A program made the position numbers and the translations under genes. The notes beneath the pieces were generated by a model, which saw nothing but the letters and a program-made list of their open reading frames with translations, did not search any database and had not been told where the DNA came from. Shown here one piece after another: positions 1 through 14,026 of a stretch of 20,060 nucleotides of DNA. The stretch comes from a virus. Where the stretch lies: positions 1-20,060 of the IMG/VR virus record IMGVR_UViG_3300047370_000128, one strand, 5' to 3'. The first letter of the stretch is position 1. Each line of letters starts with the position of its first letter.

Positions 1-1075
1 CAGAAATATCTGTAGGGTTATCAAGAACTCCACCGCTCGCTAATTTAATCTGATCATCAGGTCTGTCAATAACACCACCAGATGCAAACTTACGTTTTGG
101 TAGTGCTCTTGATTGCATACGTGGCATGAATCCACCCATTCCACCGCCTTGACCACGATTACTTGCCCATGGTTGACTAGATCCTCTACCTAATGGTCCA
201 ATAGGTTTAGTATATTGCCTGCTTTTTGACATGCGTGGCATTTTATTTCTGCCACCACGGCGACCTCTCCTTCCACCTATAAAACGTTTACCAACATTTA
301 ATATGTTGCCAAGAATACCACCACCGCCACCTTCAGGGCGGTCCCTTTCATTGTCATAACCAGTACCACCTACTTGCCTATTTCTACTTTCACCAGAAGT
401 TTCAATAGCAGCTGCTTCAGCACGATCTGCTGCTTTAATATTTTCAGTTAATTGCTCATTAGAAATAGTATTAGATTCTTCCTGGATCTTATTGTTCTTA
501 TTAAAATAAGACTTAAGACCATTAATATTGTCTGCTAATTTTACAACAACTGATGGTGTTTGATCTGCTGCTTCTTGATTCTTAAGACCATCAAGTTTAG
601 AACTAATTTCTTTAAACTTGATTGCAATTACACCTGCAAGTTTATCTACTGTGGATTGTTCTTTATATCCTGCATCTGATAAAGGTAACTCTGGTTGAAT
701 TACACCCTGCTTTGGTGGTGCTTGAAGTGATGCTTCAAACCTTTGTGCTTTTGTTAATGCTGGATCATTTTTATCGTCTGGATTAGATTGGAAGAACCCC
801 ATAGTTCTTCTTGCTTTATCACCTCCAAACTCACTGACCATTGCCTTACCAAAAAGACTACCAGGTTTTCGGTCAGTCTTTTCTTGTAGCAGATCTGATA
901 GTCTTAATTCTTCTTCGTCAGTTTTATTTGATTTTTCTTGAAGTTCTTTGATTTCATCTTCTCTACGCTTTCTAGCACTAGCAGCCATAGAAATGGCACT
1001 ACCAATCTTGTCTCCCATTGCGCCTGCAAGACTGCCATAGGATGGTTGTTCGTAACTTACAGTGCCTGCTGCCAT
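1..1075 (-). CDS. Tail/tape-measure-like structural protein, partial (cut by left edge)
   Basis: About 358 codons are present, from an ATG at 1073-1075; the 3' end lies outside the window. The N-terminal ~110 residues resemble the same part of the next gene upstream (1165-3786). Both carry a SLAG/TLAG-like helix followed by a short MAA-x-ARR/ARK stretch, then an FGGD motif, then DPAL with RF a few residues later. The middle is predicted coiled coil with many Gln, Glu and Lys. Gly/Arg-rich segments follow, and near the left edge ASGGV occurs twice about 17 residues apart, a motif typical of phage tape-measure and tail-hub proteins. A likely role is a virion tail-interior or hub protein. T4 gp29 and gp27/28 are alternatives that cannot be separated here. 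The fragment is real coding sequence, but its precise function is uncertain. Confidence 0.65.
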   Translation of the reverse strand, partial: MAAGTVSYEQPSYGSLAGAMGDKIGSAISMAASARKRREDEIKELQEKSNKTDEEELRLSDLLQEKTDRKPGSLFGKAMVSEFGGDKARRTMGFFQSNPDDKNDPALTKAQRFEASLQAPPKQGVIQPELPLSDAGYKEQSTVDKLAGVIAIKFKEISSKLDGLKNQEAADQTPSVVVKLADNINGLKSYFNKNNKIQEESNTISNEQLTENIKAADRAEAAAIETSGESRNRQVGGTGYDNERDRPEGGGGGILGNILNVGKRFIGGRRGRRGGRNKMPRMSKSRQYTKPIGPLGRGSSQPWASNRGQGGGMGGFMPRMQSRALPKRKFASGGVIDRPDDQIKLASGGVLDNPTDIS

Positions 1076-1158: not shown

Positions 1159-1166
1159 TATTTATC
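1159..1166 (-). promoter_or_regulatory. Candidate T4-type late promoter (GATAAATA)
   Basis: On the minus strand the octamer GATAAATA matches the T4 late promoter box TATAAATA at 7 of 8 positions. It sits at the end of the upstream tail gene, about 84 nt before the start codon at 1075, in the only sizeable gap of the tail module. A transcript from it would have a leader of about 75 nt. Such AT-rich octamers occur often by chance, so this is tentative. Confidence 0.3.
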
Positions 1167-3786
1167 AATTAGTTCTCAACCTTTGGGTCTTAAAGTAATT
1201 GCCATCAACTTTCTGACCTTTTTCTGTGTAAAATACACGTTCAGTTGATCCCATTGGTCTTGGCGTAGACGCCACGTAACCAGAATTACCTCCCTCCATT
1301 ATGATAGGTACAATCACAGCACCTCCTTTCTTTGCTTGAGCTACAGTAGAAGGTAACACTGTAGCACCAGGTAGTACATCTGTTGGTGGACTTAATTGTT
1401 GTCCTCCACCAATGTGTTCATCAGCACTGTCTAAATTAGATGGTGTTTGAAGTCCACCAGCACCAACAGGATCAACACCTGCGGGTGTTTCAGTAGGTGG
1501 AGCATTAGGTGGTGTAGGTGGTGTGTCTGACATACCAGCAGTTAATCCCATCTTCTGAATCATACCTTCATAATAAGCAGGGGTATATTGTGCCTGAATA
1601 CGAGCAGCAGGGATTTCCCAATTTGCCATCCACCAATGTGCTGCAGCACCAGGTGAATCAAATGATTGTTTAAGATAGTCTGGTCCAGTAAATTCTTGTA
1701 GTGCATAATCTATCTGACCTTTCCAATTTGTTTTCCAATCAGGAACTGCTGCCATCATAGGACCACCACGACCTGCTGCCATATTCCATTGGAACAAACC
1801 AAACGATCCACCAATACCTTTATCACCATGAGCACCTAATTTAAATCCAGATTCTCTACTTATGTTTGCAACTAAACCTTTAGCATGGTTCTCAGTTAGT
1901 CCCTTAGATAGTAGATAGTTATAAACAGCGCCAGCAGTAGTTCTACCTTCACCGCCACCCATATCTACATCACCATTGAAATTTGCTGGTGCTCCTGTCA
2001 TTGTTTCACCAGGTTTAGCACCACCTTTACCTAAACCACCACCACCTGCTTCCAAGTCTTTATCATCTCCTGGATCAGTCAAGGATGATGTTGCTCCTTT
2101 TCCTAGTATACTTTTGACACTAAATTTAGCAACACCAAACAATCTAACCAGTGGTCCCATATATTGAGACAAAAATGGTTTCATCATATCAATACCAGGT
2201 GTACTATTGATGATATCCTGAGTAATGCCTAGAATAAATGGAACAGCAGAAACTGAACTACCAATATCAGATACTGCTTTAACTGTACTTCTTCCTACAG
2301 TAGATGTCAGATTAAATACTGATTCAGGTCCTGCTTCACCAGCAATAACACCACCTGATGCAAGTTTTTCTGGTGGTCCTTCTATAGGTCTATTAATATC
2401 AGGTCCAGGTCCATATGGGTCTGGTTGTGGTGTGTCTGCTTCATCTTCAAATCCAGACAGTCCTGCTGTTGGTGATGATGTGCCAGCATCAGATTCTTTT
2501 GGTTTAGTATCGCCCCCTCCACTACCACCAGTAAGTGCGTCATAAACAGCACCACCAACCATGTCACCAAGGAAACCACCAAGAATGGTTCCAGCAAGTG
2601 GTACAGGAATTAGTGTGCCTAATGCTCCACCAAGTGTAGCACCAACTGCTTTTGCTGCTGCTCTGCCAAGTGGTTCACCTAACATAAGTGACACTGCAAA
2701 GTCAATCAGACCACCAATAAGCGGAATGCGTTTAATGAGCGGTCTCATTAAACCTAGTGCTGCTTTCTTAATGAATGATTGAGTTACTTTAACTGCTGCA
2801 GTCTTGGCAAGTTTCTTACCACCAAATCGTAGTGCTGTCCTTTGGACAATTCTACCCGCACCTCGTCTTCCTACACTAGCAGACTTACCGAAGTAACTTC
2901 CACCATCTAATAAATCTAGAGCAGTGTCTAATAAACCTCCACCACCTTTTTCTTCTTCTTCTTTATCTCTAGGATCTTCTCTACTGTCATCAACTTTTAC
3001 GGTTGAAGCACGATCAACAGCAAACTCGCCGCGTTTCTCTACCTTTTTAACGTTTGCCGATTCATCTTGGTCACTTTGAAATCTAAGAAATCTATTCTTA
3101 ATTATATTTGATTTCTTTAGTAGTGTATTGTTTTCAGTTACTACTTCTTGTACTTGCTTGTTTGTATCCTGTTGGATTTCAATAGCAAGTGCGAGTTGTT
3201 CGCTACCTTTATCTTTAGCAGCAGATACTTCATCTATCTTACTGACAACTTCATCTGCAGCAGCAACTAACTCGGCGTTTGATTCACTACCTCCTTGCGG
3301 TGCTTGTAGTGGACCCTGCTGTATATCATAACTTGGTTGTACTTGTGCAGAAAATCTACCTGACTTACCCAGTGCTGGGTCTTGAACATCAGTAGGATCT
3401 GACGAAAACGTACCTTTAGTCCTGTTAACTAAGTCACCACCAAATTGAAACTTTAATGCTTTCTTTAGGTAGTGTCCTTTTTCCTTAGGAATTTTGTTTG
3501 GATCTTTACGACGTGCATCTGCCGCCATGTTAAAAGATTCCTTGACCTTACCGCCAAGAAATCCTGCTAGAGTATCACCTTGCCCAGTAGATGATACCTT
3601 AATGACTTGAAATTTTTTCTTTTTATACTTTACCTTAGATTCAGATGGTAAAGGTTGTGCTTCTCCATCAGGTTCATTATAAATCTGCTCCAACAAAGGA
3701 TCCAGCATGTTCTCATCAAAGCCCTTTGACATACGGTCAATGACTTCTTGTAACTGCTTTTTCCTTTGTGGATCTACTTCAGGCAT
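1165..3786 (-). CDS. Tape-measure/baseplate-hub-like protein with tail lysozyme domain
   Basis: This 873-aa virion protein probably acts inside the tail and digests peptidoglycan during DNA entry. Residues 1-150 are the module shared with the downstream gene. Residues 170-280 are charged and probably coiled coil. Residues 340-420 are a long Gly/Ala/Leu hydrophobic region typical of tape measures. Residues 476-490 carry LASGGV followed by GEAGPES, the tape-measure family motif. Residues 615-745 match the phage tail lysozyme fold (Phage_lysozyme2 type): NISRESGF places the candidate catalytic Glu at 645, and GSFGLFQW follows. A Pro-rich linker and C-terminal tail end the protein. Its position just after the gp26/gp51-like pair is where tape-measure genes normally sit. 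The start codon overlaps the end of the gp51-like ORF by 8 nt. T4 instead carries its lysozyme on gp5, so equating this with T4 gp29 is inference. Confidence 0.8.
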   Translation of the reverse strand: MPEVDPQRKKQLQEVIDRMSKGFDENMLDPLLEQIYNEPDGEAQPLPSESKVKYKKKKFQVIKVSSTGQGDTLAGFLGGKVKESFNMAADARRKDPNKIPKEKGHYLKKALKFQFGGDLVNRTKGTFSSDPTDVQDPALGKSGRFSAQVQPSYDIQQGPLQAPQGGSESNAELVAAADEVVSKIDEVSAAKDKGSEQLALAIEIQQDTNKQVQEVVTENNTLLKKSNIIKNRFLRFQSDQDESANVKKVEKRGEFAVDRASTVKVDDSREDPRDKEEEEKGGGGLLDTALDLLDGGSYFGKSASVGRRGAGRIVQRTALRFGGKKLAKTAAVKVTQSFIKKAALGLMRPLIKRIPLIGGLIDFAVSLMLGEPLGRAAAKAVGATLGGALGTLIPVPLAGTILGGFLGDMVGGAVYDALTGGSGGGDTKPKESDAGTSSPTAGLSGFEDEADTPQPDPYGPGPDINRPIEGPPEKLASGGVIAGEAGPESVFNLTSTVGRSTVKAVSDIGSSVSAVPFILGITQDIINSTPGIDMMKPFLSQYMGPLVRLFGVAKFSVKSILGKGATSSLTDPGDDKDLEAGGGGLGKGGAKPGETMTGAPANFNGDVDMGGGEGRTTAGAVYNYLLSKGLTENHAKGLVANISRESGFKLGAHGDKGIGGSFGLFQWNMAAGRGGPMMAAVPDWKTNWKGQIDYALQEFTGPDYLKQSFDSPGAAAHWWMANWEIPAARIQAQYTPAYYEGMIQKMGLTAGMSDTPPTPPNAPPTETPAGVDPVGAGGLQTPSNLDSADEHIGGGQQLSPPTDVLPGATVLPSTVAQAKKGGAVIVPIIMEGGNSGYVASTPRPMGSTERVFYTEKGQKVDGNYFKTQRLRTN

Positions 3787-3904
3787 TTTGCTTTTGCTTT
3801 TCTTCTAGTTCTTTAAGATACTGATTAAGCAGGGAGACATAGACGGTTCGCTCCCATGGCATCATGTCTTCAACTTCCGTCAAAGAGTATTTATGATGTT
3901 GCAT
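3779..3904 (-). CDS. 51: gp51-like / tail-assembly chaperone C-terminal ORF, probably expressed by -1 frameshift from gp26
   Basis: From its first ATG this encodes 41 aa, beginning MQHHKYSLTEVEDMMPWER and ending in a charged helix with EELEEKQK-like composition. The YS-LTE-x-E-x-M-PWER pattern is what I expect of the small downstream partner of tail-assembly chaperones and of gp51-like proteins in T4-type cyanophages. No Shine-Dalgarno precedes the ATG. The frame stays open upstream, with no stop, back to the slippery site at 3961-3967 inside gp26. It is therefore more likely made as a C-terminal extension of gp26 (coding 3779-3967 in the -1 frame, about 60 extra residues) than as a free peptide. 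Its stop overlaps the start of the tape-measure-like gene by 8 nt. The gene is confident; the gp51 name is less so. Confidence 0.65.
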   Translation of the reverse strand: MQHHKYSLTEVEDMMPWERTVYVSLLNQYLKELEEKQKQNA

Positions 3905-3911
3905 CAATGCA

Positions 3912-3967
3912 AAGTTTGTTCTATAGTAATTTTCAAGACTATTATAAAACAAACTTATCCGAAAAAA
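3912..3967 (-). other. Programmed -1 ribosomal frameshift site (slippery heptamer plus stem-loop)
   Basis: On the minus strand the last codons of gp26 read TCT TTT TTC GGA TAA. This contains T TTT TTC, a canonical X XXY YYZ heptamer in the correct frame, at 3967-3961. Four nucleotides downstream begins a 14-bp stem: AAGTTTGTTTTATA (3956-3943) pairs with TATAGAACAAACTT (3925-3912), with one G-U pair and a 17-nt loop. Slippage by -1 enters exactly the open frame of the gp51-like ORF. This matches the lambda G/GT arrangement just upstream of the tape-measure gene. The use of the site is inferred; the elements are seen directly. Confidence 0.8.
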
Positions 3968-4671
3968 GATGCCAAGCCCTCAAGTGTGTAAGAAGATTCG
4001 ACTCCAGTAGTAGGATTGACTACCTTAAATGTGTGACGTAACACAGGCATCGTCTTGAAAAACTTTTGAATAGATTCAAATTGTTTCTGTGTTAGTTGCT
4101 CAATAAATTCTACCTTCTCTTTATGAGTAGTTGTAGTCTCATCAAATACTTCATCGCCCTCAAATATTTGCTCGATGCAAGTTGCGACCATATTAAATAC
4201 AGTATCTGGATCATCAATCTCATTACCAATAAGTGTGATGTCAATAAATTCTTCGAGACCAGGATATCCCATGATAAGTCCAACCTTATCAGTCAGCATA
4301 ATTTTAGTATCATGTCCCTCTGGATAGTATACATGAACATCATTCAAATCAATAGTATAATCAACAACAGTTTTGTTATCATCTAGACAAGTAATCTTCA
4401 TGGGAATATCTTCACCCACAGATACTGATCTGATTTTTAGAAACAAATACTCTAGATCAAATGATGTAAGTTCAGACAATTTAATGCGTGACTTCACACA
4501 GTTGCTAACAATATCTTTTACTGCTCTTTTTATTTCATCTTTGTCTTCACTTTGTGTTGCAATGAGCAGAACTTTTTCTTCCCTGACTAAGAAAGGACGG
4601 TACTTAACTTTCTTTTTAGACGAAGGCAATTCAAGTTCATAACTCGGAGTAACAACTGATGGTAATGCCAT
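3955..4671 (-). CDS. 26: Baseplate hub / tail-assembly protein gp26
   Basis: This 238-aa protein resembles the T4 gp26 family (T4_baseplate). It opens with MALPSVVTPSYELELPSS followed by a basic YRPFLVREEKVL segment, then a helical region, and then a YYPEGHDTKIMLTDKVGL-like central part. T4 gp26 is slightly shorter, about 208 aa. It acts in assembly of the baseplate hub, and its genomic position suggests a tail-assembly-chaperone role. The ORF follows gp54 by 6 nt, so it is co-transcribed, and it ends in a strong -1 frameshift signal that joins it to the gp51-like ORF. The zero-frame product ends in ASFFG; the frameshifted product would continue for about 60 residues. Confidence 0.75.
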   Translation of the reverse strand: MALPSVVTPSYELELPSSKKKVKYRPFLVREEKVLLIATQSEDKDEIKRAVKDIVSNCVKSRIKLSELTSFDLEYLFLKIRSVSVGEDIPMKITCLDDNKTVVDYTIDLNDVHVYYPEGHDTKIMLTDKVGLIMGYPGLEEFIDITLIGNEIDDPDTVFNMVATCIEQIFEGDEVFDETTTTHKEKVEFIEQLTQKQFESIQKFFKTMPVLRHTFKVVNPTTGVESSYTLEGLASFFG

Positions 4672-4677
4672 GATAAT

Positions 4678-5484
4678 TTAACCTTTATAATTTTGAATAT
4701 TATTGTACGTAATGTTGTGCTTGGAATAATAAAAATTCGCTGTCACTTTTGTTGCTTGAGATGTTCCATATGATAATGGAACAGAGTCAATAGAATATGG
4801 GTACACATCTAACAGAGTGTATGTCATTGATGCTCTAGAATTAGGAGCATTTTCACCTTTCTCTGTCTTAGTTATGGTACAGTTAGCAAGGTACTCATCA
4901 GGATAAGATAGTCTAACAGACCTTTCTACTTGAAGTTTATTACCTTGTGCTGACTTATCTTTTTGAGATGATAGTGTCAATCCACTATTGAGATCAGGTT
5001 TTATTAGGTCACCGTTTGATGCAGCGTACTCCTGAAATATAGTACCATACCATAAGTTTAAAAACTTTAGCGGTGTCATATCAGCATCACAAATCCATCC
5101 CAGTTGAAAGTCGGTGAACACCCTAGTGTGTGGGTAATTAACTTGACCCTCACCTAAGAATCTACCTGTTGTCTGCCCTGTAGCAGCAGAAATATTAGGA
5201 AGTTGTGCTTCATCACAAAAATATTTAAGAATCATCCCCTTTTTATTTACATCAGTAGTTGGAATTAATCCACCAGCAAAACCTTCTTGGTCTCCAACCT
5301 TAGTTGTGCTACCACCTGAGAGACCCATTCCAAAGTCTTGCATGACTTTATACAATGAAGTGTCCTGTCTTTTCTGTGTCTCAGCATTTGTGAGAATAGG
5401 AAAGAACCATTCTATATCATAATTATTGCTATAGGAGAGACCTCCATGAGCATTGATAGTTTCTATAAAATTTCTTAATGACAC
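4678..5484 (-). CDS. 54: Baseplate tail-tube initiator-like protein gp54 (tail-tube fold)
   Basis: This 268-aa protein begins with GTG and reads MSLRNFIETINAHGGLSYSN. Its layout fits the tail-tube / gp54 family. It has an N-terminal SLRNF...GGLS...YDIEW strand region, then CDEAQLPN, then a loop before YPHTRVFTDFQLGWICD. After that come a DM-x-PLKFLNLWY segment and a C-terminal TYTLLDVYPYSIDSVPLSY followed by beta strands. These are the landmarks of tube proteins that polymerise on the baseplate. T4 gp54 starts the tail tube on the hub and is about 320 aa. No good Shine-Dalgarno is visible before the GTG. A candidate late promoter lies about 30 nt upstream. The tube-like fold is well supported; assignment to gp54 rather than another tube paralogue rests on context. 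Confidence 0.6.
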   Translation of the reverse strand: MSLRNFIETINAHGGLSYSNNYDIEWFFPILTNAETQKRQDTSLYKVMQDFGMGLSGGSTTKVGDQEGFAGGLIPTTDVNKKGMILKYFCDEAQLPNISAATGQTTGRFLGEGQVNYPHTRVFTDFQLGWICDADMTPLKFLNLWYGTIFQEYAASNGDLIKPDLNSGLTLSSQKDKSAQGNKLQVERSVRLSYPDEYLANCTITKTEKGENAPNSRASMTYTLLDVYPYSIDSVPLSYGTSQATKVTANFYYSKHNITYNNIQNYKG

Positions 5485-11570: not shown

Positions 11571-11810
11571 TTACCACTCCACCTGTGATCCAGGCATTTT
11601 TGCCATCTTATTCATGTGTTCACTCCATCCAGGATGAGTCTTGTTCATTTTGTTACGCCAGTCTCCGACTTCTCCGACACCAGCACAACCTTGCGACCAA
11701 TCTTTATCCCATTCAGGATTTTCATCCTTCCAAGAACAATATTCTTTCATGGTCATGTGGAGTGTCTGTGTTTCTCCAGTAGATTTATTTATGACAGGGT
11801 ATGTAGGCAT
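11571..11810 (-). CDS. Small conserved phage protein, unknown function
   Basis: The 79-aa product starts MPTYPVINKSTGETQTLHMT, and has MKEYCSWKDENPEWDKDWS and a C-terminal segment with MNKTHPGWSEHMNKMAKMPG. The opening MPTY-x-V-x-N-K-x-TGE and the hydrophilic WK-x-ENP segment are typical of small conserved proteins seen in T4-like phages, sometimes compared to FmdB/zinc-ribbon-like proteins. It has only two Cys (one near 25, one near 42), so a zinc ribbon is not obvious. Its start overlaps the stop of the carbamoyltransferase N-domain gene as TAATG, and PhoH follows closely. No function is assigned. Confidence 0.6.
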   Translation of the reverse strand: MPTYPVINKSTGETQTLHMTMKEYCSWKDENPEWDKDWSQGCAGVGEVGDWRNKMNKTHPGWSEHMNKMAKMPGSQVEW

Positions 11811-12865
11811 TAATTTAGTCCAAGGTAGATGCTATGAGGATGTTTTGTTTGCGACCCAGTAGTATTATACCACAAATATTTCGCTGCGCCAAGGGCAGTT
11901 CCACAATCGAATGCTATTGGATCTACAAAGAAGTTAATGTCAGGAAATTTCTTGACATACTTATAGTTATTTACACAGTTCATAAAGTATCCACCACTCA
12001 GTACAATGTTATTAGGATTGTACTTGTCGATAACTTTTTGAATTGTATACATGGTGTGGTTACATGATTCTTGCTGAAGTTTAGCAGCAAAGTTTGCTTT
12101 TGAATCAAAGGTATCAGAAACACTATGCATCTCATTGTATACAACAGAATTATCTGTAAGGTAATGTCCTTTGTATTCTTTATACCATGACACATCAGAT
12201 TCTATCTGACCGTATGCTGCCATGCCCATAAGTTTACCAGCATCAGCACCTGAGTTATTGAATCCAAACATTTCACATGCTCTAGAAAAGATCCAACCAC
12301 ATGCAAGATGATTAGTATATGTCTTATGACCTATTGTTTCTACAAAACTATCACGATTAAACCCAGAATAATATTGTTCTAGTTCGTTGATACCATTGTA
12401 ACTACAATCGTAAATGGATTGTATTTCTCTAGACACACATTCTCTATTAGATGGAGCACCAGAACCATCCTTTACAATAGCGATAGCATTATCCATACCA
12501 GACATATAAAATGCATTAGATGCATGGTATATGTGATGACGGTACATATCATAGTGTGTCTTACCAAAGGTGACACCATGATCTGCTAACGCATTCTTAA
12601 CTACATGCATTCTTCGTGGATCGTTTCCTGGTGAACCATACGATGCGAAGATAAGATGATCAACATGTTTTACATATGGAATTGCTTGGAATCCATTACG
12701 AACAGTCTGATAAACATTACTCTTAGTACGAATGCTTTCTTGTGTTTCAATTCTAGAGTTTTTTGTTTTATTAAGACGTTCTTCTTCGATAAAGTATTGC
12801 ACTACACCATCTTTAAGTAAACATGATGACGGGTGATGTGATATGTTGACACTTAAGATGTACAT
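11810..12865 (-). CDS. Carbamoyltransferase, N-terminal (Kae1-like) domain protein
   Basis: The 351-aa product is the N-terminal half of a NodU/CmcH-type O-carbamoyltransferase. It begins MYILSVNISHHPSSCLLKDG, has HHIYHASNAFY near 110-119, VKDGSGAPS near 131-139, AGKLMGMAAYG near 209-219 and NIVLSGGYFMNC near 286-297, in the usual order. It stops near SIYLGLN, exactly where the second domain would normally follow in the single-chain enzyme. The remaining domain is encoded by the upstream gene (overlap 13 nt). The Kae1-like domain transfers the carbamoyl group from carbamoyl-adenylate to a hydroxyl of a sugar, antibiotic or modified base. The substrate is unknown. Confidence 0.85.
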   Translation of the reverse strand: MYILSVNISHHPSSCLLKDGVVQYFIEEERLNKTKNSRIETQESIRTKSNVYQTVRNGFQAIPYVKHVDHLIFASYGSPGNDPRRMHVVKNALADHGVTFGKTHYDMYRHHIYHASNAFYMSGMDNAIAIVKDGSGAPSNRECVSREIQSIYDCSYNGINELEQYYSGFNRDSFVETIGHKTYTNHLACGWIFSRACEMFGFNNSGADAGKLMGMAAYGQIESDVSWYKEYKGHYLTDNSVVYNEMHSVSDTFDSKANFAAKLQQESCNHTMYTIQKVIDKYNPNNIVLSGGYFMNCVNNYKYVKKFPDINFFVDPIAFDCGTALGAAKYLWYNTTGSQTKHPHSIYLGLN

Positions 12866-13395
12866 AGTTGAGCACTGTCAGGAAAATAAACAAAGTCAAT
12901 AGCAGATCGATTGAGTGTGTCTAATGCATCTGCTTCACTGTGAACTATAGTATCACCACTAAGATTGAATGATGTATTGAATAACATAGGTACACCTGTA
13001 ATTATTCTAAAAGCATCAAGAAGCATGTAGTAATTATAGTTCTGCTCTTTAGTTACTGTCTGGATACGACAAGTCTTATCTACATGTAGGACACCAGGAA
13101 TGATATCATATACTTCAGGATGAGCATCCATTGCATACGTCATGTAAGGACTCTCAGGTAGTCCAGCAAGGTCAAAGTAATCTGAAGCATACTCAAGCAT
13201 AACAGACGCTGCAAATGGTCTGTACCATTCTCTACGCTTGACTATGTTGATCTTATATTTTGCTTCTGGATCTCTGGGATCATAAAGGATAGATCTATTA
13301 CCCAGTGCTCTCGGACCTGCTTCATCTGCACCTTGAAAGATTGCTACAATCTTACCTTCACTGATTAGTTCAGCAACATCATGATAGGTAACCAT
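12853..13395 (-). CDS. Carbamoyltransferase, C-terminal (YrdC-like) domain protein
   Basis: About 180 aa, carrying DEAGPRALGNRSILYDPRD, REWYRPFAASVM and GVPMLFNTSFNLSGDTIVHS, which are the motifs of the C-terminal domain of NodU/CmcH carbamoyltransferases (Carbam_trans_C). That domain makes the carbamoyl-adenylate intermediate from carbamoyl phosphate and ATP. The gene lies upstream of the N-domain gene, reversing the domain order of single-chain homologues. A TTG start four codons earlier (13407) is also possible; I prefer the ATG at 13395, which keeps a 17-nt overlap with thyX. Its last 13 nt overlap the N-domain start, consistent with equal production of two subunits. No frameshift site is visible in the overlap. 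Confidence 0.8.
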   Translation of the reverse strand: MVTYHDVAELISEGKIVAIFQGADEAGPRALGNRSILYDPRDPEAKYKINIVKRREWYRPFAASVMLEYASDYFDLAGLPESPYMTYAMDAHPEVYDIIPGVLHVDKTCRIQTVTKEQNYNYYMLLDAFRIITGVPMLFNTSFNLSGDTIVHSEADALDTLNRSAIDFVYFPDSAQLCTS

Positions 13396-14026
13396 TTGCT
13401 TCAGCAATCACAGGGAACTGTTCAATAAAGATCTTCTTACATGCCTCAGCAATATCCATGTGTTCTTTTTGTGTGCCATTAGCAGATCTTAGATCGATAT
13501 AATGCATCCATGAACGCAAATTTCCTGTCATAAAAATACGAGTGCCAACAGCCAAAGGAAGAACAAAACGGGAGCATTCCTTAGCAACCCCTTGACGCAG
13601 AAGCTCGTTATAGAGATCAATACCCTCGGCAAAATGTCTTGCAATTGCCCCTTGTAATGCAAGTTTCTTTTCGGGGCTGATATCATCCACTGAGTTCTGT
13701 CTGTTCTTCGTATCTTGAGATCGAAGATCTGGGACAGGTATCTCACTAGTGAGGAGATTAGTGTCTGCATAGCGTTGCGAAAATTCTTGGAAAGTAAACG
13801 AACGATGACGCAGAATTTGGGCTGCGATACCGCGAGAGGTATTTATCTCCAAAGTCATGTGTGCCTGCTCAAAGACGCTCCAATGCCCATGCTTAATGCA
13901 ATAACTCAGTAGACCAGCGACCTTAGGGTTGTCTTGGTTATTGGGGTTGCTTACGCGAGCAATGTAACCGATCGTCTTCTCTGCCTCAGGTGTTACAGAT
14001 ACTAATTTAACATCCATGTTAGTCAT
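13379..14026 (-). CDS. thyX: Flavin-dependent thymidylate synthase ThyX
   Basis: The 215-aa protein converts dUMP to dTMP using FAD and methylenetetrahydrofolate. The signature R-H-R-x7-S-x-R-Y appears at residues 73-86 (RHRSFTFQEFSQRY), which binds FAD and dUMP. Other ThyX features are a HGHWSVFEQA motif near 46-55 and a C-terminal WMHYIDLRSANGTQKE segment with the conserved Arg. Length matches the family. It overlaps the carbamoyltransferase C-domain gene, suggesting co-translation and possibly a shared theme in pyrimidine nucleotide supply or DNA base chemistry. Confidence 0.95.
   Translation of the reverse strand: MTNMDVKLVSVTPEAEKTIGYIARVSNPNNQDNPKVAGLLSYCIKHGHWSVFEQAHMTLEINTSRGIAAQILRHRSFTFQEFSQRYADTNLLTSEIPVPDLRSQDTKNRQNSVDDISPEKKLALQGAIARHFAEGIDLYNELLRQGVAKECSRFVLPLAVGTRIFMTGNLRSWMHYIDLRSANGTQKEHMDIAEACKKIFIEQFPVIAEANGYLS

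Follow-up and report, generated by a model that had tools for sequence, protein, structure and literature searches.

Programmed −1 frameshifting very probably joins gp26 and gp51 into one G/GT-type (lambda-like) gene for tail assembly chaperones in the T4-like cyanophage contig analysed here (20,060 nucleotides of IMG/VR record IMGVR_UViG_3300047370_000128, henceforth called the window). In the proposed mechanism, most ribosomes would stop at the gp26 UAA to yield the 238-aa short form (gp26), and a minority would pause near the gp26 end, helped by base-pairing of 16S rRNA with a GAGGG some 10 nt upstream of the slippery heptamer and also by a hairpin 4–5 nt downstream of it. By slipping back one base on U_UUU_UUC, these ribosomes would read 60 more codons in the −1 frame, giving a predicted long form, gp26 extended by the gp51 domain, of about 297 aa. 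The ratio of the short to the long form would serve tail tube assembly around the tape measure. In T4, genes 26 and 51, which are separate paralogues, encode the counterpart pair. The occurrence and rate of slippage, any contribution of the SD-like element and the hairpin, and the chaperone role are what we infer from the comparisons given below, i.e., from heptamer conservation, selection on the −1 peptide, missing start codons, RNA structure, and homology to T4, which together support the earlier proposal that gp26 and gp51 are one G/GT-type pair.

Frameshifted (−1) chaperones are known in long-tailed phages, T4-like phages included, and the contig is a previously unannotated member of this group. 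The reinterpretation of gp26 and gp51 away from the baseplate hub, as put forward in a preliminary description of this DNA, is right but not new, as the T4-like tail assembly chaperones (gp26/gp51) had been identified before by Vladimirov, Gautam and Davidson (2022, Virology 566:9–15), according to the passages of PMC10885494 and PMC12846349 that cite this work. The passage of the PRFect article (PMC10885494) summarising Vladimirov 2022 states that some T4-like phages do without frameshifting and carry two genes, a short one and a longer, fused one. The corresponding passage of PMC12846349 attributes the poly-T slip signals of T4-like phages to the same work. The SD-like element and the turnover of the hairpin may be additions to this picture.

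The 3′ end of gp26 reads GCA UCU UUU UUC GGA UAA on the minus strand, so that a slippery heptamer of the form X_XXY_YYZ lies in frame near the stop of the upstream ORF, with GGA as the single sense codon between heptamer and UAA (Table 1). This confirmed the heptamer previously described in the gp26 frame near its stop, and the spacer and the 14-bp stem (17-nt loop, four extra pairs possible inside the loop) were likewise recovered as described. The stem-loop had an energy of −16 kcal/mol (z = −3.65 vs dinucleotide shuffles). A search of the window against Rfam gave no match. The bare TTTTTTC is not rare in the window (nine seen vs 7.3 expected) and is thus common by chance, so the case for the cassette rests on its position and conservation.

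Table 1. Features of the gp26 region (window positions)
Feature	Positions	Strand	Remarks
Tail tube protein, upstream of gp26	4678..5484	−	PF23849
gp26, putative short tail assembly chaperone	3955..4671	−	238 aa, zero frame; PF12322 T4_baseplate E=1.4e-68; phrog_150
SD-like GAGGG, probable upstream stimulator	3977..3981	−	9 nt upstream of heptamer
Slippery heptamer U_UUU_UUC	3961..3967	−	UUUUUUC at 3967..3961, in gp26 frame
4-nt spacer GGAU	3957..3960	−	
14-bp stem, 5′ arm	3943..3956	−	3956–3943 pairs with 3925–3912
14-bp stem, 3′ arm	3912..3925	−	
−1 frame extension (gp51 in other annotations)	3779..3967	−	62 codons from slip site + UGA; phrog_634, phrog_150
Downstream long ORF in tape-measure position	1165..3786	−	Tail lysozyme domain; tape-measure role by position only

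gp26 is a member of the T4 gp26/gp51 family, with a score of 231 bits against PF12322 (T4_baseplate; curated cut-off 24.5). From the slip site, the −1 frame (translation beginning FFRISLFYNSLENYYRTNFALMQHHKYSLTEVEDMMPWER...) is uninterrupted up to the UGA at 3781–3779, and its end overlaps the start of the next ORF (AUG at 3786) by 8 nt. The extension matched phrog_634 (E=5.8e-28) and the C-terminal end of phrog_150 (E=2.8e-7). Of the earlier statement that the −1 frame runs open to a stop inside the start of the tape measure gene, the openness and the overlap thus held, but the tape-measure identity is positional only: family matches of the downstream ORF were to a tail-lysozyme domain and to a PHROG of unknown function, which leave that identity unconfirmed. 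The location is that of a G/GT-type pair, i.e., between the tail tube gene and, by position only, the tape measure gene. The ORF at 2–1075 (minus strand) is a neighbouring paralogue of the gene in tape-measure position, as the N-terminal regions of the two are related (25% identity over 233 aa, E=3e-14). Elsewhere in the window (11810–13407, minus strand), a carbamoyltransferase is split over two ORFs with swapped domain order: the ORF for the C-terminal domain (PF16861) lies upstream and overlaps the one for the N-terminal domain (PF02543).

For the assessment of conservation, viral contigs were scanned with gp26 as query, yielding 80 related loci, which were reduced to 36 non-redundant ones; searches for relatives in plasmids and a single-protein scan of bacterial genomes returned none. 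As the preliminary description had asked for in close relatives, the heptamer was kept: TTTTTTC occurred at the identical place, 3 nt before the gp26 stop, in 80/80 viral-contig relatives, directly followed in each by a −1 peptide of the same kind (FF[RQH][ILV]..). The Phe pair was encoded by TTT TTC in all 36 non-redundant loci, with a T run of exactly six phased as T_TTT_TTC, and the preceding codon varied (AGT, TCT, AAT, GCT, GAT, ACT) yet ended in T in every one of them. With the amino acids fixed and codon usage taken from these genes themselves, the probability of the heptamer in the 36 loci was about 10^-32 (shared ancestry ignored), and of the 38 Phe-Phe pairs that these genes have at other places, one carried it. 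Position and conservation make the heptamer non-random.

The −1 frame was then assessed for selection and for start codons. pN/pS in this frame was 0.54–0.62 in the first codons past the slip site and 0.22 in the core, and synonymous changes exceeded amino-acid changes from the third codon on, a pattern absent in the other two frames; on this comparison, selection acts on the protein encoded in the −1 frame from the slip codon onward. Upstream of the slip site, the −1 frame was closed within 0 to 14 codons, leaving a short open stretch without a start codon. The possible starts of the −1 ORF in this phage are UUG at codons 6 and 21 and AUG at codon 22, and no SD-like sequence was seen ahead of any of them, which bears out the earlier remark that the short ORF has no ribosome binding site of its own. 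In seven of the 36 loci (L011, L012, L014, L045, L054, L058, L063), no ATG, GTG or TTG occurred before codon 21, which lies inside the conserved core, after the conserved YY..NF block; the conserved peptide must therefore be reached from gp26 in these loci. Strong independent initiation of the gp51-like ORF, which had been named beforehand as an observation that would speak against frameshifting, finds no support in them. Judged by comparative sequence only, the downstream ORF is thus open in −1 and appears to be translated as an extension and not from its own start.

These data also bear on coupled re-initiation near the gp26 stop, by which gp51 would be a separate small protein and the heptamer would merely encode Phe-Phe. 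Such a reading would agree with the two genes annotated in public records, and with the TAATG stop-start overlap found, without a U6 heptamer, in some Vibrio Ackermannviridae-like relatives. It is nevertheless improbable, as conserved −1 codons lie ahead of any start, the core lacks a preceding start in the loci listed above, the Phe codons and the base before them are fixed far beyond codon usage, and, in T4, the homologue of the gp51 piece forms one protein with a PF12322 domain.

Frameshifting is further supported by elements on either side of the heptamer. A match of at least 4 nt to the 16S anti-SD was present 8–12 nt upstream of the heptamer in 36/36 loci, vs 23% of control positions (GGAGG in 13 loci, GAGG in 10, AAGG or AAGGA in 10, AGGA in two, TAAG in one). 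This match is partly due to a conserved Glu-Gly-Leu; GAG was the codon at the site in 23/33 cases vs 3/21 in other Glu-Gly pairs (p = 7e-5), and where Glu was replaced, the AGGA core persisted. The element resembles the dnaX stimulator, and GAGGG (GAGG or GGAGG in relatives), about 10 nt upstream, is a probable stimulator here as well.

The downstream stem was tested by comparing local folding in the 36 loci with that of synonymous recodings that leave the peptide unchanged, with covariation being too weak to serve as the main proof. Folding was stronger than in the recodings in 27 of 36 loci at p<=0.05, with a mean z of −2.4 vs −0.25 in a control stretch. Although they occupy the same place, the stems fall into at least three dissimilar classes: AAGUUUGUUUUAUA (this phage), GUAUGGCUCA../..UGAGUCAUAC (many relatives) and GCCCUC../GAGGGC (others). 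A few relatives having both ORFs lacked the stem-loop (L045, L054, L058, L063). The expectation of a conserved stem with compensatory changes was accordingly borne out in part: the excess of folding over recodings stood, but the stem varied among lineages and was absent in some. Covariation as the chief proof of the stem was dropped, with one compensated pair among 12 within one stem class.

Slippage of RNA polymerase on the T run, in place of the ribosome, could in principle join the two frames, and a T run is indeed present at the site. This explanation is very improbable, still more so than re-initiation: a run of six T is short for polymerase slippage, its length and its T_TTT_TTC phase do not vary among the non-redundant loci, and ribosomal frameshifting would account for both the SD-like element beside the site and the fixed spacing of the stem.

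Ribosomal frameshifting is also in line with the relation to T4. The matches of T4 gp26 (E 9e-64) and T4 gp51 (E 4e-52) cover the entire PF12322 profile, and those of the gp26/gp51 pair of 44RR cover nearly all of it. T4 gp51 has about 48 further residues, and its residues 200–246 align to the −1 peptide from the slip-site position on. Given this C-terminal tail and the PF12322 match of both proteins, the short and long forms of T4 therefore come from two genes, and the same likeness supports a short/long chaperone pair in the present phage. The systems thus share the PF12322 family and, in the long form, the same C-terminal piece, whereas the two forms are encoded by separate genes on opposite strands in T4 and 44RR and by one gene plus frameshift here.

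Shared with lambda are a short/long pair made via −1 frameshifting where the upstream ORF ends and a location flanked by the tail tube gene and the gene in tape-measure position. The lambda slip site is G_GGA_AAG, whereas the present phage is contractile and T4-like, with U_UUU_UUC, a hairpin and an SD-like element, and PF12322 is without clear sequence homology to G. For lambda, gpG and gpGT are tail assembly chaperones (Levin 1993 and Xu 2004, as cited in passages of PMC12859696 and PMC9024508). Phages of the Vandenendeviridae and Andersonviridae (PMC12846349) likewise have a T-rich slip site ending the short form and a −1 extension before the tape measure, but belong to other phage families and use the motif GTTTTT. 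An AlphaFold2 model of gp26 was confident (pLDDT 87.6) and strongly matched predicted gp26 proteins of other phages; within its top 21 PDB matches, the solved chaperones 2ob9 and 3fgx (HK97, Geobacillus) were weak matches (E ~3.5, prob 0.16–0.33). By sequence, gp26 had no significant match to solved tail assembly chaperones.

The same design, with U6C, U6U or U6G, was found in S-PM2, P-SSM2, ACG-2014b, HTVC008M, Caulobacter Cr30, Sinorhizobium phiN3, Rhizobium RL2RES and N34, Ochrobactrum OspM_OC, Pseudomonas Astolliot, Stenotrophomonas Moby, Desulfovibrio 7757, Vibrio ValKK3, D479 and 1.081.O (Schizotequatrovirus being among the holders of the U6 type), and Aeromonas Aeh1; a few T4-like lineages have U6U or U6G in place of U6C. 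Taken together, the T4-like signal may have three parts, i.e., an SD-like element, an invariant U6N and a hairpin fixed in position and rebuilt with another sequence from lineage to lineage, with the T4 branch having lost the signal when the two forms became two genes; we give this account, including that its anatomy and turnover may be undescribed, about an even chance.

All public annotated records examined, apart from those of T4 and 44RR with their two real genes, either list gp26 and gp51 separately or have no gp51, and no joined gp26-gp51 gene occurred among the annotated stretches examined. gp51 is absent from the annotation of ACG-2014b, Aeh1 and Magnus. Sullivan et al. 2010 (PMC3037559) described gp51 of cyanophages and marine vibriophages as being without the first ~200 residues of T4 gp51, and reported Aeh1 without gp51. 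With gp51 as the frameshift extension of one gene, the truncated look would be explained and the missing gp51 of Aeh1 supplied. In Aeh1 (L109), an unannotated −1 extension, FFRLTLVNDSVYDLFNVNYEMHKEGWTIEELETTTPFERAIY.., follows TTTTTTC from ~2244 across the gp26 stop. Abundant marine phages would thereby gain a testable ratio control of tail assembly, and the occurrence of a two-gene solution (T4) and a frameshift solution (cyanophage) in one family permits a direct test of the purpose of the ratio.

Ackermannviridae and similar phages (PM10, Magnus, K369, 1.244.A) kept the −1 ORF, and a canonical heptamer was not found in them. In the Ackermannviridae loci L084, L119, L100 and L103, a −1 ORF with ..DFHLIFEIDLLSYFVMCDEL..MPWHL.. 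and no early ATG lies just past the gp26 stop, with no canonical heptamer, and the shared GAGATTTTCATTTAATTTTTGAAATTGATTTA suggests another recoding signal.
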